Shown here piece by piece: positions 1-5,503 of a stretch of 64,000 bases of DNA; positions within the stretch are counted from its first letter, which is position 1; each line of letters opens with the position of its first letter. Location: assembly GCF_010730355.1 (NCBI RefSeq), contig NZ_AP022576.1, positions 3,348,001 to 3,412,000 of the forward strand, given 5' to 3'. The notes below the pieces were generated by a model. It made no database searches. It had not been told where the DNA came from and was given only the letters and a program-made list of their open reading frames with translations. A program made the position numbers and the translations under genes. Source of the DNA: Mycobacterium florentinum. Its GTDB lineage: Bacteria > Actinomycetota > Actinomycetes > Mycobacteriales > Mycobacteriaceae.

Positions 1-99
1 GGTGCCGTGGTAACCGCGGGCGGCGAACAGCTTGGTGGCAACGGCCAGCAACTCCTCGCGGCGCGTCAACCCGTTACGGGTGATGCTGTCGGATGACAT
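1..99 (-). CDS. TetR-family regulator, N-terminal part only (cut by window edge)
   Basis: Only the first 33 residues are inside the window; the gene continues beyond the left edge. They read as a typical TetR helix 1 and turn, with the segment REELLAVATKLFAARGYHGT that precedes the DNA-recognition helices in this family. The start is an ATG after two short polar residues. By position and sequence this looks like the counterpart of M. tuberculosis Rv0158. It is divergent from the small-protein genes that follow, so it could control them. The ligand-binding domain is not visible, so nothing can be said about the effector. Confidence 0.8.
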   Translation of the reverse strand, partial: MSSDSITRNGLTRREELLAVATKLFAARGYHGT

Positions 100-224
100 C
101 TCTACTCACTATCGTCGCTGCCAACGGGGCGGCATGGGCTGCGCGCCGGGCCCGGTTAAGGCAAGGTACCAATCAACTGGTTGGACAGTTTAGAGGCATG
201 GACGCCTGTCGCACCGGCACGGAT

Positions 225-255
225 GCGACTAGACTCGATTATTCGAACTAGTCGC
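225..255. promoter_or_regulatory. Inverted repeat upstream of the first small-protein gene
   Basis: Perfect 8-base arms GCGACTAG and CTAGTCGC are separated by 15 bases, ending 18 bases before the ATG of the first 41-residue protein gene. The size and placement fit a regulator operator or a leader hairpin. Part of the right arm (GAACTAG followed by a CG-rich stretch) is echoed as GAAACTAG upstream of the second copy, but the full dyad is not repeated there. The binding protein is unknown; the flanking TetR gene is the obvious candidate. Confidence 0.45.
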
Positions 256-273
256 GAGTACAGAGGTGGGGCG

Positions 274-399
274 ATGGATCCGAGTCCGGACTACGACGGC
301 AGCGACGAAATCGAATTCTTCATGAAGTACCTGACCTGGGGCCTGCGCGGCGTTCAGGACGGAAACGGCTACCCGCCGCCCGCCTACCCGCCCGTCTGA
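274..399 (+). CDS. 41-residue conserved small protein, copy 1
   Basis: A 41-residue protein with an acidic N-terminus (MDPSPDYDGSDEIEFF), a short aromatic-hydrophobic stretch (FFMKYLTWGLRG) and a proline/tyrosine-rich tail (GYPPPAYPPV). It is supported as a real gene by a second copy 333 bases downstream that is 37/41 identical. The ATG is preceded by a purine-rich AGAGGTGGGG, a reasonable ribosome binding site. No cysteines, no cleavable signal peptide and no full transmembrane helix are visible. Its location suggests relation to the small gene annotated as Rv0157A in M. tuberculosis, but I recall only the position and approximate size of that gene. Function unknown; the amphipathic centre could lie on a membrane surface and the tail contains a PPxY-like motif. 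Confidence 0.72.
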   Translation: MDPSPDYDGSDEIEFFMKYLTWGLRGVQDGNGYPPPAYPPV

Positions 400-606
400 A
401 CAGACTTTTTCGCGTCCCGAACAAATTGCGGTGCCGCGCGCCGGCAGGCACCTGCGGGCCGACATCCGATTTCAGATTGTCTTTGTGCTGCACGGTAATT
501 GGGGCCCAGCCGCGCTTGCCCCGATAGCGCTCGCCGCCGTCCGCGACCGGGTGCTGTGGACCGCGGCCCGATGCCGCAGCGCGTCGCCGAAACTAGCGTG
601 GGCACG

Positions 607-732
607 ATGGACCCCAGTCCGGACTACGACGCCAGCGACGAAATCGAATTCTTCATGAAGTACCTGACCTGGGGCTTGCGCGGGGTCGAAAACGGCCAGG
701 GGTACCCGCCGCCCGCCTACCCTCCGGTCTAG
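607..732 (+). CDS. 41-residue conserved small protein, copy 2
   Basis: Tandem paralogue of the preceding small protein, the same 41-residue length, differing only at residues 9 (G to A), 28 (Q to E), 29 (D to N) and 31 (N to Q). The acidic head, the FFMKYLTWGLRG core and the GYPPPAYPPV tail are unchanged. The 207 bases between the copies are not obviously duplicated apart from a short GAAACTAG-like stretch before the start, so each copy may have its own promoter. It ends 18 bases before the convergent stop of the P450 gene. Function unknown. Confidence 0.72.
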   Translation: MDPSPDYDASDEIEFFMKYLTWGLRGVENGQGYPPPAYPPV

Positions 733-749
733 GCAAGCCTGCGCGCCGG

Positions 750-1979
750 TCAGCCGCCGTAGGCGACGTCGAGGCGTTTGACCCCGTTGATCCAGCCCGA
801 CCGCAGTCGTTGCGGCTCGGCGAGCTTGGTGATGTCGGGTATTTGCTCGGCGAGCTCATCGAAAATCAATTTGATCTCCATGCGGGCCAAATTGGCACCG
901 ATGCAGTAATGCGCCCCATTGCCGCCGAAACTCAGGTGCGGGTTGGGGTTGCGCAAGATGTCGAATTGAAACGGGTTGTCGAAGACTTCGTCGTCGAAGT
1001 TGGCCGAGCTGTAAAACAGCCCCACGCGCTGGCCTTCCCGGACGGTGACACCGCCCAGTTCGACGTCGGCGAGCGCGGTGCGCTGGAAGCAATGCACGGG
1101 GCTGGCCCAGCGAATGATCTCGTCGACCGCGGTGGCCGGCCGTTCGCGCTTGAACAGCTCCCATTGCTCGGGGTTGTCCAGAAACGCGTTCATCCCGTGC
1201 GTCATCGCGTTGCGGGTGGTTTCGTTGCCCGCCACGGCCAGCAGGATGACGAAGAAGGCGAACTCGACGTCGCCCAGCGCATCGCCATCGATGTCGGCCT
1301 GGATCAGGCGCGTGACGATGTCGTCGGCCGGACAGCGGCGCCGCTCGTCGGCCATGTTGTAGGCGTAGGCCATCAACTCGGCATTGGCGGTGGTGGGGTC
1401 GCTGTCGAAGTCGGGATCGTCGGTGTTCATGATCGCGTTGGTCCAGTCGAACAACTTCGCGCGATCCGCCTCCGGCACACCGATCAGATCGGCGATGGCC
1501 AGCAGGGGCAGCTTCATCGCGATGTCGTCGACGAAGTCGCCGTCTGCCTTCAGTGCGGCGGTGCGCACGATTTCGGCTGCCGCCGCGGCCAGCTTCTCCT
1601 CGAGCCCGCCGATCGCACGCGGGGTGAACAGCCGCGACACCAGCTTGCGCAACCGGGTGTGTTCGGGCGCGTCGTGGTTGATCAGCAACGCCTTGGTGAG
1701 CTCGAGCTGATCAGACGTGACCCCTTCGGGCATGCGCATGACCGCGCCCTGCCGGTTGGTCGACCAGAGTTCGTTGTTGCGTGAGATGGCTCCAACGTCC
1801 TCGTGACGGCTGATCACCCAGTAGCCGCCGTCGTTGAAGATCGACTCGGGCTGGGCGTTCCACCAGACCGGCGCGGTGCGGCGCAGCTCGGCGAATTGGG
1901 TGACCGGAAGGCCCGCCAGCAATACGTCGGGGTCGGTGAAATCGAAATTCTCTCCGAACGGACACGTCGTCATTGTCAT
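750..1979 (-). CDS. Cytochrome P450, CYP125 family paralogue
   Basis: A 409-residue cytochrome P450. The I-helix oxygen-activation motif AGNETTRN, the EIIRW ExxR region and the haem-ligand loop FGGNGAHYCIGANLAR are all present. The N-terminal FDFTDPDVLLAGLPVTQFAE and the C-terminal RLRSGWINGVK closely follow M. tuberculosis CYP125A1, which hydroxylates the terminal side-chain carbon of cholesterol and cholestenone. This copy lies outside the cholesterol cluster and so is probably a second CYP125 acting on sterols or other branched lipids; that is inference. The ATG chosen follows AAAGGAGACGAC; an ATG two codons later is also possible. It is divergent from a TetR gene with an inverted repeat between them. 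Confidence 0.88.
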   Translation of the reverse strand: MTMTTCPFGENFDFTDPDVLLAGLPVTQFAELRRTAPVWWNAQPESIFNDGGYWVISRHEDVGAISRNNELWSTNRQGAVMRMPEGVTSDQLELTKALLINHDAPEHTRLRKLVSRLFTPRAIGGLEEKLAAAAAEIVRTAALKADGDFVDDIAMKLPLLAIADLIGVPEADRAKLFDWTNAIMNTDDPDFDSDPTTANAELMAYAYNMADERRRCPADDIVTRLIQADIDGDALGDVEFAFFVILLAVAGNETTRNAMTHGMNAFLDNPEQWELFKRERPATAVDEIIRWASPVHCFQRTALADVELGGVTVREGQRVGLFYSSANFDDEVFDNPFQFDILRNPNPHLSFGGNGAHYCIGANLARMEIKLIFDELAEQIPDITKLAEPQRLRSGWINGVKRLDVAYGG

Positions 1980-2005
1980 GTCGTCTCCTTTGACCGTGAC
2001 GTCGA

Positions 2006-2032
2006 TCATACATCGAACTAAAAGACGTATGA
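2006..2032. promoter_or_regulatory. Candidate TetR operator between P450 and TetR genes
   Basis: Inverted repeat with 6-base arms TCATAC and GTATGA around 15 bases, placed in the divergent promoter region of the CYP125-family gene and the adjacent TetR gene. Its location fits joint control of both genes by the TetR product. The arms are short, so this is suggestive only. Confidence 0.4.
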
Positions 2033-2067
2033 CCTGTCGTTCGGGGTGCGTCGGATATCGTCGCGAT

Positions 2068-2667
2068 GTGCGGACCCGGGGATGGGGCGGCAGCGTGCCG
2101 GCCAGCGACGAGGAGGCGGTGGCCCGCATCCTGTCGGCCGCTCGCCAGACCATCGACGAGCGCGGTGACCAGATCACGCTGGCGGACGTCGCACGCACGC
2201 TGAACGTGACCCGGCAGACGATCTATCACTACTTCGCCTCGACCGACGAGCTGCTGCAGGCGACCGCGCTCGGCGCGACCGCCGATTTCATGGATCACCT
2301 GGCTACGGCGCTGCACGGGCTGACCGATCCGGCCGCCGCGCTGATCGAGGGCATCTGCCTGACCCTGGAGCGCTTGCCGAAAGATCCCTACATCGGCCTG
2401 TTGCTGCGGACGTCGCGCACCGCGGCGTTCGCCGAACAGGTCACCGTCACCAACGAGACCGCCCGCGTGCTGGGACGGTCGATTTTGGAGCGGCTCGACG
2501 TCGACTGGTCGCCGTTCACCCCTGCCGCAGTCGACGACATCCTGCAGATCGTGTTGCGTACGTTGCAGTCGTTCATCATGTCGCCGCCGGCGGGCGGGGT
2601 GGCCGAATTGCGTCGGCTGCTCGCCGTGTGGGTCGGCCCCGTCGTCGCGGCGCTACCGCGGGCTTAG
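2068..2667 (+). CDS. TetR/AcrR-family transcriptional regulator
   Basis: About 199 residues with an N-terminal TetR helix-turn-helix: ARILSAARQTIDERG, then LADVARTLNVTRQTIYHYF, the recognition helix ending in the usual YHYF. The rest is a helical effector domain of unknown specificity. Two GTG starts are possible; the first is used here, and one nine codons later begins VPASDEEAV. It is divergent from the CYP125-family P450, so that gene is its likeliest target. Its stop codon overlaps the stop of pntB, which runs the other way. The H37Rv equivalent region has no TetR at this exact place and strand, so this gene and the P450 look like an insertion. Confidence 0.85.
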   Translation: MRTRGWGGSVPASDEEAVARILSAARQTIDERGDQITLADVARTLNVTRQTIYHYFASTDELLQATALGATADFMDHLATALHGLTDPAAALIEGICLTLERLPKDPYIGLLLRTSRTAAFAEQVTVTNETARVLGRSILERLDVDWSPFTPAAVDDILQIVLRTLQSFIMSPPAGGVAELRRLLAVWVGPVVAALPRA

Positions 2668-4088
2668 AGGGCTTTGAGCTCCTCGGCGACTGCGGTCACC
2701 GACTTCTTGGCGTCGCCGAACAGCATGCTGGTGCCCTCGCCATAGAACAGCGGGTTGTCGATGCCGGCGAACCCGGAGTTCATCGACCGCTTGAGTACGA
2801 TCACCGATTTGGCCTTGTCCACGTTGAGAATTGGCATGCCGTAGATCGGGCTCGAGGCGTCGTTGCGGGCGGCCGGGTTGGTGACGTCGTTGGCGCCGAT
2901 GACGATCGCGACGTCGGTGCGCGAGAACTCGTCGTTGATGTCGTCCATGTCCTTCATGGCGTCGTAGTCGACCTCGGCCTCGGCCAGTAGCACGTTCATG
3001 TGGCCGGGCATCCGGCCGGCGACGGGGTGGATCGCGTACTTCACCGTCACGCCCTTGTTCTCCAGCAGCGACGCCATGTCCTTGACGGCGTGCTGGGCCT
3101 GCGCCACGGCCAGGCCGTAGCCGGGGACCACGATCACCTGGTTGGCGTAGACCATCTGGATCGCGGCGTCGGCGGCCGAGGTCGCCTTCACCGTCTTGTC
3201 GCCGCCGCCGTCGCCGCTGGGGGCCACGCCGCCGCCCCCGAAGCCGCCGGCGACGATCGCGGGGATGGAGCGGTTCATCGCCTTGGCCATCAGGTTGGTC
3301 AGGATCGAACCGGACGCGCCGACGATCATGCCCGCGACGATCATCGCGGTGTTGTTCAGCGCCAAACCTGCTGCGGCAGCGGACAATCCGGTCATCGCGT
3401 TGAGCAGTGAGATGACCACCGGCATGTCGGCCCCACCGATGGGCAGCACCACCATCAGGCCGAGCACACCGGCCGCGGCCAGCAGGCCGATCATCCACCA
3501 CAGCGATGCCCCGCCGGTGCCGGGATGCGCGTGCAGGCCGACCATGACCGCCGACGCGATCGCCCCGATCAGCAGCAGCAGGTTGATCGGCTGCTGGGCC
3601 TTGCCGAATCCGATCGGCTTGCCGTCGATGATCTCCTGCAGCTTGCCGAACGCGATGATCGATCCCCAGAACGAGATCGAGCCGATGATCGCGGCGAACA
3701 GCGAGGCCACCACGATGTGCACGGTCGGCGATTCGCCGTGCTGGAAGACCGAAAAGCCCTTGGTGTCAATGAATTCCGCCAGCGCGATCAGCGCAACCGT
3801 GCCACCGCCCACGCCGTTGAAGAACGCCACCAGCTGCGGCATGGCGGTCATCTTGGTCATCCGCGCCGGGGGAACACCCAGCGCAACGCCCACCACCAGA
3901 CCGGCGATGATCAGCACCCACGACTCGGTGTGCCGGATCTTGACCAGCGTCGCCCCCACCGCCAGGGCCATACCCACCGCGGCGATCAGGTTGCCGCGCA
4001 CCGCGGTCTTGGGACCGGTCAGGCCCATCAGGCCGTAGATGAAGAGCGCGAAAGAAATGATGTAGAGGATCGTGACCAGATAGTTCAT
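2664..4088 (-). CDS. pntB: NAD(P) transhydrogenase subunit beta
   Basis: A 474-residue subunit of the proton-translocating nicotinamide nucleotide transhydrogenase, which uses the proton gradient to drive hydride transfer from NADH to NADP+. The N-terminal two thirds are a run of hydrophobic helices starting MNYLVTILYIISFALFIYG. The C-terminal domain III carries the NADP-binding stretch VVPGYGLAVAQAQHAV near residue 320 and GANDVTNPAA near residue 400. The start ATG overlaps the stop of pntAb by four bases, indicating translational coupling. It is the last gene of the pntAa-pntAb-pntB operon and ends against the convergent TetR gene. Confidence 0.97.
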   Translation of the reverse strand: MNYLVTILYIISFALFIYGLMGLTGPKTAVRGNLIAAVGMALAVGATLVKIRHTESWVLIIAGLVVGVALGVPPARMTKMTAMPQLVAFFNGVGGGTVALIALAEFIDTKGFSVFQHGESPTVHIVVASLFAAIIGSISFWGSIIAFGKLQEIIDGKPIGFGKAQQPINLLLLIGAIASAVMVGLHAHPGTGGASLWWMIGLLAAAGVLGLMVVLPIGGADMPVVISLLNAMTGLSAAAAGLALNNTAMIVAGMIVGASGSILTNLMAKAMNRSIPAIVAGGFGGGGVAPSGDGGGDKTVKATSAADAAIQMVYANQVIVVPGYGLAVAQAQHAVKDMASLLENKGVTVKYAIHPVAGRMPGHMNVLLAEAEVDYDAMKDMDDINDEFSRTDVAIVIGANDVTNPAARNDASSPIYGMPILNVDKAKSVIVLKRSMNSGFAGIDNPLFYGEGTSMLFGDAKKSVTAVAEELKAL

Positions 4089-4411: not shown

Positions 4412-5503
4412 CTAGGAGTCCTCTCCGCGCGTCACACACGATGCCGCGATGATTTCGTCGTCGAAGTCCGGGGCCAGCTTCCCGTCGGTGACCAACAGCT
4501 CCAGCAGCGCGGTGATGTTCTTGCTGTACAGCTCGCTGGCGTGCTCGGGCATCGTCGCCGGCAGGTTCAGCGGCGAGGCGATGGTGACGTCGTGGCGGAC
4601 GACCGTGCGCCCGGGCTCGGTCAGCTCGCAGTTGCCGCCGGTCTCCCCGGCCAGGTCGACCACCACGCTGCCGGGCTTCATCGCTTCCACCGCGGCGGCG
4701 GTGACCAGACGCGGCGCGGGCCGGCCCGGCACCAGCGCCGTGGTGATCACGACGTCGAATCCGCTGATGGCCTTCTCCAAGGCCTGCTGCTGCTGTTCGC
4801 GTTCCTCGTCGGTCAGCTCGCGGGCATACCCGCCCTCACCGGCCGCATCGATCCCGACGTCGAGCCACTGCGCGCCGACCGAACGCACCTGGTCGGCCAC
4901 CTCCGGGCGGACGTCGTAACCGGTGGTGCGCCCGCCGAGCCGCTTGGCCGTCGCCAGCGCCTGCAGTCCGGCCACGCCCACCCCGAGCACCAGCACCGTG
5001 GCCGGCTTCACCGTGCCCGCCGCCGTGGTCAGCATCGGGAAGAACCGCGTCGACTCCGACGCCGCCAACAGCACCGCCTTGTAGCCGGAGACGTTGCCCT
5101 GCGACGACAAGGCGTCCATCGCCTGCGCCCGCGAGATCCGCGGGATGGCCTCCAGCGCGAACGCCTGCACACCGGCCGCCTTGAGCGCGCCGATCGAATT
5201 CTCGGCATTGCGCGGCGCCAGGAAACCGATCAGCGTCTGACCGCTGCGCAGCTTGCCCACCTCGTCGGCGGTCGGCGGCGCGACCTTGACCACGACATCG
5301 GCGGCCCAAGCGTCCCCGATCGTGGCGCCGGCCTCAATGTAGAGCTCGTCGGGAAGCAACGCCCGCGCCCCCGCACCGGCCTCGACCACGACCGCCACAC
5401 CGCTGCTTACCAGGGAAGCGACCGCCTTCGGTACCAACGCGACGCGGCGCTCATCGGCCCCGGACTCAGCAACTACTCCGATCGTCGTCTGCGCATCTGT
5501 CAT
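4412..5503 (-). CDS. pntAa: NAD(P) transhydrogenase subunit alpha part 1 (NAD-binding)
   Basis: A 363-residue soluble domain I of the transhydrogenase. It shows the alanine dehydrogenase/PntA N-terminal fold (ERRVALVPKAVASLV) and a Rossmann NAD-binding loop VLVLGVGVAGLQA near residue 170. An ATG beginning MTDAQTTIGVVAES is taken as the start; a GTG five codons upstream lies very close to an AAGGAAA and is an alternative. First gene of the pnt operon. It pairs with PntB domain III across the membrane to exchange hydride between NADH and NADP+. Confidence 0.95.
   Translation of the reverse strand: MTDAQTTIGVVAESGADERRVALVPKAVASLVSSGVAVVVEAGAGARALLPDELYIEAGATIGDAWAADVVVKVAPPTADEVGKLRSGQTLIGFLAPRNAENSIGALKAAGVQAFALEAIPRISRAQAMDALSSQGNVSGYKAVLLAASESTRFFPMLTTAAGTVKPATVLVLGVGVAGLQALATAKRLGGRTTGYDVRPEVADQVRSVGAQWLDVGIDAAGEGGYARELTDEEREQQQQALEKAISGFDVVITTALVPGRPAPRLVTAAAVEAMKPGSVVVDLAGETGGNCELTEPGRTVVRHDVTIASPLNLPATMPEHASELYSKNITALLELLVTDGKLAPDFDDEIIAASCVTRGEDS

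Follow-up and report, generated by a model that had tools for sequence, protein, structure and literature searches.

A Mycobacterium small-protein family, encoded alone or as the tail of CAP-domain proteins, is linked to mce loci and may dock onto Mce lipid-import systems

The window analysed here, a stretch of 64,000 nucleotides from Mycobacterium florentinum, begins with a TetR-family gene, followed by two tandem genes for 41-residue proteins, a P450 gene and a second TetR-like gene (Table 1). An earlier note, made from the sequence alone, had drawn attention to the tandem pair, and its description was confirmed: both ORFs lie where it had placed them, and the encoded proteins are identical at 37 of 41 residues. 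The two neighbours it had called a TetR gene and a CYP125-family P450 were also recognised as such, by a Pfam match to TetR_N and by the best solved relative, respectively.

Table 1. Genes and sequence elements at the left end of the window
Feature	Position	Strand	Remarks or basis
TetR-family regulator, 5' part (cut by window end), divergent from the modules	1..99	-	Pfam TetR_N, TetR_C_24
CAACTGGTTG element between TetR gene and module, possible operator	174..183	.	Recurrence upstream of modules
TAGACT, -10-like hexamer upstream of copy 1	230..235	+	By eye
AGAGGTGG, Shine-Dalgarno-like site of copy 1	262..269	+	Sequence
Module gene, copy 1	274..399	+	41 aa, ends in stop
TAGCGT, -10-like hexamer, 7 nt before copy 2 start, apparently leaderless-like	594..599	+	
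Module gene, copy 2	607..732	+	41 aa, ends in stop
CYP125-family P450, neighbour, judged outside the system	750..1979	-	Best solved relative CYP125, E 1.5e-153
Second TetR-like gene, neighbour	2095..2667	+	By eye

The likeness of the two copies is confined to their coding part. The ORFs agree at 108 of 123 nucleotides, whereas the flanks are only 40% (60 nt upstream) and 38% (60 nt downstream) identical, which bears out the earlier observation that the intervening DNA is not obviously duplicated. Between the copies dS was 0.54 and dN 0.053 (NG86), a ratio of 0.10 and far from one; this comparison had been proposed as a check. Across 51 core-type sequences (L064-L113) the pooled pN/pS was 0.146, and variable columns at the first, second and third codon positions numbered 10, 9 and 37 of 41. 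The low ratios and the third-position variation indicate that the product is under selection, as had been supposed, and that the module, as the unit is called here, is a conserved protein-coding unit under purifying selection. A reading as an RNA element was set aside, with no Rfam match in window positions 1-3000 and a codon pattern that favours a protein.

The weight placed on the pair was not sustained, as the tandem arrangement was seen in the window, at L064 and L074 and, by coordinates, in genomes G031, G110 and G132. The window pair is one local duplication within a wider family. At L085 (M. montefiorense) a degenerate-looking second copy was seen at about 5252, downstream of an intact module. 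Gene conversion between the tandem copies was also considered (dS 0.54 within the window pair versus 0.98 for copy 2 between the window and L064) and rejected as a conclusion, there being too few sites.

Upstream of the modules several elements recur. Of 53 core-type modules, 39 have CAACTGGTTG 92-122 nt ahead of their start, against a chance expectation of 0.06 per window; a TAGACT-type motif is visible by eye in many core upstream regions, and a permissive Shine-Dalgarno-like 4-mer was present in 91 of the 96 upstream regions examined. Copy 1 shows the order TAGACT, AGAGGTGG, ATG. For copy 2, all three examples (window, L064, L074) have no recognisable Shine-Dalgarno sequence and carry TAGCGT 6-7 nt before the ATG, an arrangement that looks leaderless; leaderless starts are common in mycobacteria (PMC4633059). 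On these features, copy 1 would be Shine-Dalgarno leadered and copy 2 leaderless, and the duplication may separate two translation modes for nearly one peptide. The suggestion that duplication serves dosage or functional specialisation thus stands in its first part, the duplication, while dosage or specialisation between the copies is possible.

Core-type modules and a divergently oriented TetR gene sit together in the broader surroundings of mce1. A window-type module is divergent from the same TetR-family gene in 50 of 50 named core loci (L064-L113; the whole TetR gene is seen at L144, 7464-8099), and the fetched DNA contained pntB in 44 of these loci, the second TetR-like gene in 7 and the P450 in just 6, so the earlier stress on the P450 was not supported. 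In the window, the P450 and the second TetR-like gene (750-2667) stand between the module and pntB as an apparent insertion. The small M. tuberculosis gene Rv0157A, placed between pntB and the TetR gene Rv0158, would correspond in position to the core module.

Although none of the 50 named core loci shows an mce gene within its own roughly 10 kb of DNA, Mce1R, found at E 1e-50 in 20 of 24 chosen genomes, is within 40 kb of the core module in all 20 of them and within 10 kb in 14. Six stretches, chosen for closeness, share the order module, TetR, Mce1R, FadD5, YrbE1A, YrbE1B, Mce1A, and the order at L133 and L134 is similar. In the window's genome mce1 lies ~30 kb from the module. Counter-examples to close linkage are G022, with Mce1F ~60 kb from the module, G115 and G075 (about 51-53 kb) and G016, where the two are far apart. 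The labels Mce1R, FadD5, Mam and MceG are putative, given in part by resemblance; the genes that were scanned have Pfam support as GntR-FCD, MlaE permease and ABC ATPase.

The homologue search outlined in the earlier note was run, and relatives exist outside this locus. The window's own genome holds six further copies (E 8e-5 or better), and a profile built from its eight copies gave hits at E 1e-3 or better in 142 of the 148 genomes sampled from the genus. An order-wide sample of 298 genomes contained 36 with a match at 0.01, of which 35 belong to the genus of the window, and a wider profile matched 24 of 251 genomes in a family sample, 21 in the genus and three weakly in another genus. Four matches were set aside as weak: that in G329 (E 0.002) lies inside a 542-aa frame, and those in G517, G528 and G482 (E 7e-4 to 8e-3; one genus) lie inside frames of 1186-1196 aa. 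In the samples searched, sequence matching places the family in Mycobacterium alone, the genus being taken as broadly as GTDB defines it. A phage origin was rejected, with no match in 50,697 phage records and a single PHROG at E 0.25; seven viral-contig matches, which cover 17 residues and are 59% identical, were attributed to chance. The module matched nothing in Pfam or NCBIfam and no PDB chain carries it, in agreement with the earlier description of the pair as being of unknown family. 'Rv0157' occurs in the main text of neither Casali and Riley 2007 (PMC1810536), from which 'small' is likewise absent, nor PMC4633059, nor in PMC9094748.

Each module is laid out as an acidic DPxPDYD head, one predicted amphipathic helix and a proline-rich end. 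Ten columns are invariant in a 28-sequence alignment, including D6, Y7, D11, E12, W22, R25 and G26. The separate form was predicted as a single helix (residues 9-29) with moderate confidence (pLDDT 70), and the hydrophobic moment of four sequences, 0.45-0.50, is about twofold the shuffle mean of 0.22-0.23. Neither a transmembrane segment nor a domain match was detected in the module. Most separate copies in alignment A4 retain the PPxY motif noted earlier, most of the fused tails described below lack it, and PPxY was dropped as a constant family feature.

Of 53 modules outside the core locus, 44 were accompanied by mce/yrbE genes in the DNA fetched around them and a further 4 by Mam-type genes only, which, with the Mce1R result, is the gene linkage looked for in an Mce accessory protein. 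These 53 comprise 28 chosen by a tool (24 with mce/yrbE genes and 1 with Mam-type genes only), 19 picked by hand (15 and 2) and 6 from the window's own genome (5 and 1), and they are not independent, since the members of the pairs L124/L158 and L136/L163 are on equally long contigs and look like the same records. In the other five no mce or Mam gene was found in the DNA fetched: L120 and L157 have the CAP tail, L121 has an MPT51-like gene, and L143 and L169 have neither. The last two, L143 (Mycolicibacterium hodleri, 5001-5108) and L169 (G086, near 1358), are separate modules without an mce, CAP or TetR match, and that of L169 adjoins genes that by eye resemble acyl-CoA dehydrogenases. In the window's own genome, an MceF gene is found within 5 kb of five of the six other copies, and the remaining copy comes after Mam1, Mam2 and CAP genes; by arithmetic, ~1.8% of this genome lies within 5 kb of its ten MceF matches.

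A typical accessory locus runs mce genes, two Mam/Mas-type genes, CAP, module and MPT51-like gene, the last matching PDB 1r88 at E 6.9e-128. At L115, L125, L163 and L167 the module is instead upstream of the yrbE-mce start, and at L170 it lies between Mam2 and an ABC ATPase resembling MceG, where the record's incomplete table lists no gene. Complete-looking mce operons were also seen on plasmids of M. paragordonae, M. branderi and M. madagascariense (L205, L206, L207); two of these plasmids have a CAP gene with the tail, and the third has an unlisted module of the separate kind. The presence of mce operons on large plasmids suggests that accessory mce systems may move between species.

Two kinds of gene encode the module: a separate ORF, or the C-terminal tail of an exported CAP-domain protein. 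Separate ORFs have 36 to about 50 residues and no signal peptide, and their start codon coincides with the start of the module (a stop stands directly before it at L058). From L064-L170, 32 distinct tail-bearing CAP ORFs were extracted, with starts set by script and signal peptides judged by eye; L168 was dropped because it lacks the search motif. At L162 (G031), near 5091-5108 on the minus strand, the tail stops after six residues and is open in other genomes. The CAP domain passed the Pfam cut-off (PF00188) in 3 of 3 proteins scanned, one of them tail-less, and the matches of a structure model include CAP proteins, for example 4h0a and GAPR-1. Packing of the tail on the CAP domain was not seen in this model, which is too poor to judge it (pLDDT 59).

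In 19 tail-bearing proteins mean identity was 79% in the CAP part, 28% in the linker and 81% in the tail. Where a CAP protein lies near a separate module it has no tail and ends just past an AVYG motif (9 of 9), none of the 39 tail loci has a separate module, and no locus examined had both forms. This either-fused-or-separate pattern is as expected of partners that can be fused. One CAP gene in an mce operon of the window's own genome (L189/L196) was found with neither a tail nor a nearby module. CAP (SCP/PR-1) secreted proteins, PF00188, are hosts of the fused form; the module differs from the CAP domain in lying outside it, past the variable linker, and in also existing alone, and only the fusion partner, not the module itself, matches PF00188. 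The nearest NCBIfam model to the CAP part is the divisome-associated lipoprotein DalA (NF052539; E 3.9e-13 and 1.4e-7 for two proteins), whose scores, 49.6 and 31.5 bits, lie below the cut-off of 200, arise from CAP residues only and leave the module uncovered.

Distribution among genomes points to Mce1 as a more constant companion of the module than CAP or TetR. Of 20 chosen genomes with a completeness of 90% or more, 16 have both module and Mce1F, and four that look like one clade (G050, G088, G092, G147) have neither; in two less complete genomes, G005 has neither and G003 (72% complete) has Mce1F with no module found. The four genomes without module and Mce1F keep TetR at 68-70% identity. 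The CAP family is missing (E 1e-10, module-only matches excluded) in 8 of 24 genomes, namely these four together with G002, G016, G075 and G115, in which the module is present. G075 and G115 are two 3.3-Mb genomes taken as leprosy-type because the G075 module equals that of M. lepromatosis (L096). In both, TetR is broken by stops, PntB is 87-88% identical and the module is open over 37 codons; between their two modules, 4 codon differences are synonymous and 3 change the amino acid, a constraint not strong by itself. Only one complete mce operon is present in M. leprae (PMC1810536). Synteny and co-loss may each be single inherited events in one genus. At L176-L179 (G088, G147, G050, G092) the TetR neighbour is kept, the module is absent and a gene that by eye is LtrA-like comes next.

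Linkage to mycobacterial mce operons is shared by the Mas/Mam proteins and Mkl/MceG (Casali and Riley 2007, PMC1810536), and the case for the module, by phylogenetic profile and survival in M. leprae, uses the logic applied there to Mkl. The module differs from those proteins in its length of ~40 residues and in lacking both a transmembrane segment and any domain match.

The wider family and its Mce linkage, both beyond reach of the first reading, are the main finding. Mce systems, the subject of intensive study, supply mycobacteria with fatty acids and sterols, and members of the CAP fold often bind lipids. We consider the chances about even that the pair are copies of a Mycobacterium-specific docking microprotein that works with Mce lipid-import systems, a proposal built on sequence and gene order. 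The helix (about residues 9-29), held between the DPxPDYD head and the proline-rich end, would bind a surface common to Mce complexes. In accessory systems the module would hold the CAP protein at the transporter, in cis if fused and in trans if separate; for the copy near mce1 the importer itself would be the target, perhaps under TetR control, and tandem copies would add a second, differently initiated dose. The least certain part of the docking proposal is the membrane side on which the separate form acts, a single target being not obvious because the separate form has no signal peptide and the tail follows an apparent one. The separate form might leave the cell by another route, or bind something reachable on both sides. 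More tentatively, and with the balance tilted against it, the microprotein could be a missing subunit or regulator of the Mce importer across the genus, acting in trans near mce1 and, in accessory mce systems, in cis as a CAP tail that can be detached, with the separate form reaching its partner without a signal peptide.

The sidedness problem would vanish if the module were a general membrane- or lipid-binding amphipathic peptide that serves both membrane sides and has no single partner. Its hydrophobic moment and single predicted helix are consistent with this, as are its lipid-related neighbours (Mce, FadD5, MPT51-like, CAP) and the two placements without mce (L143, L169). However, ten invariant columns exceed the needs of simple amphipathicity, and alternation between fused and separate forms with one type of protein argues for a more specific role; we regard the general peptide as unlikely, at perhaps one chance in several.

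It is somewhat less probable still that the TetR-pntB neighbourhood carries the core gene as a passenger whose role is unrelated, its link to Mce being one of shared real estate. The constant TetR neighbour (50 of 50 named core loci), the tens of kb that sometimes separate it from mce1 and the retention of TetR in four genomes without the module would all fit. Against this, other copies occur in different mce operons of the same genome and on plasmids, the two 3.3-Mb genomes combine a broken TetR with an open module, and those same four TetR-retaining genomes also lack Mce1F. That the module is a substrate of type VII (ESX) secretion, with the invariant YxxxD (Y7 and D11 in 28 sequences) as export signal for a peptide whose ORF begins at the module without a signal peptide, is very improbable, since such substrates form a helical hairpin with WxG and YxxxD/E, whereas the module has one predicted helix, no hairpin and its W after the Y rather than before, and the same motif stands in tails of proteins that already start with an apparent signal peptide.

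Returning to the docking microprotein, its fused and separate forms are natural experiments for mapping its partner, and the tandem copies, one with a Shine-Dalgarno leader and one leaderless-looking, would offer a neat pair for comparing two modes of translation start on nearly the same peptide. If the module is a subunit or regulator, it would provide a short, easily mutated handle on the assembly or control of Mce complexes. The family hints at an overlooked part of mycobacterial lipid uptake.
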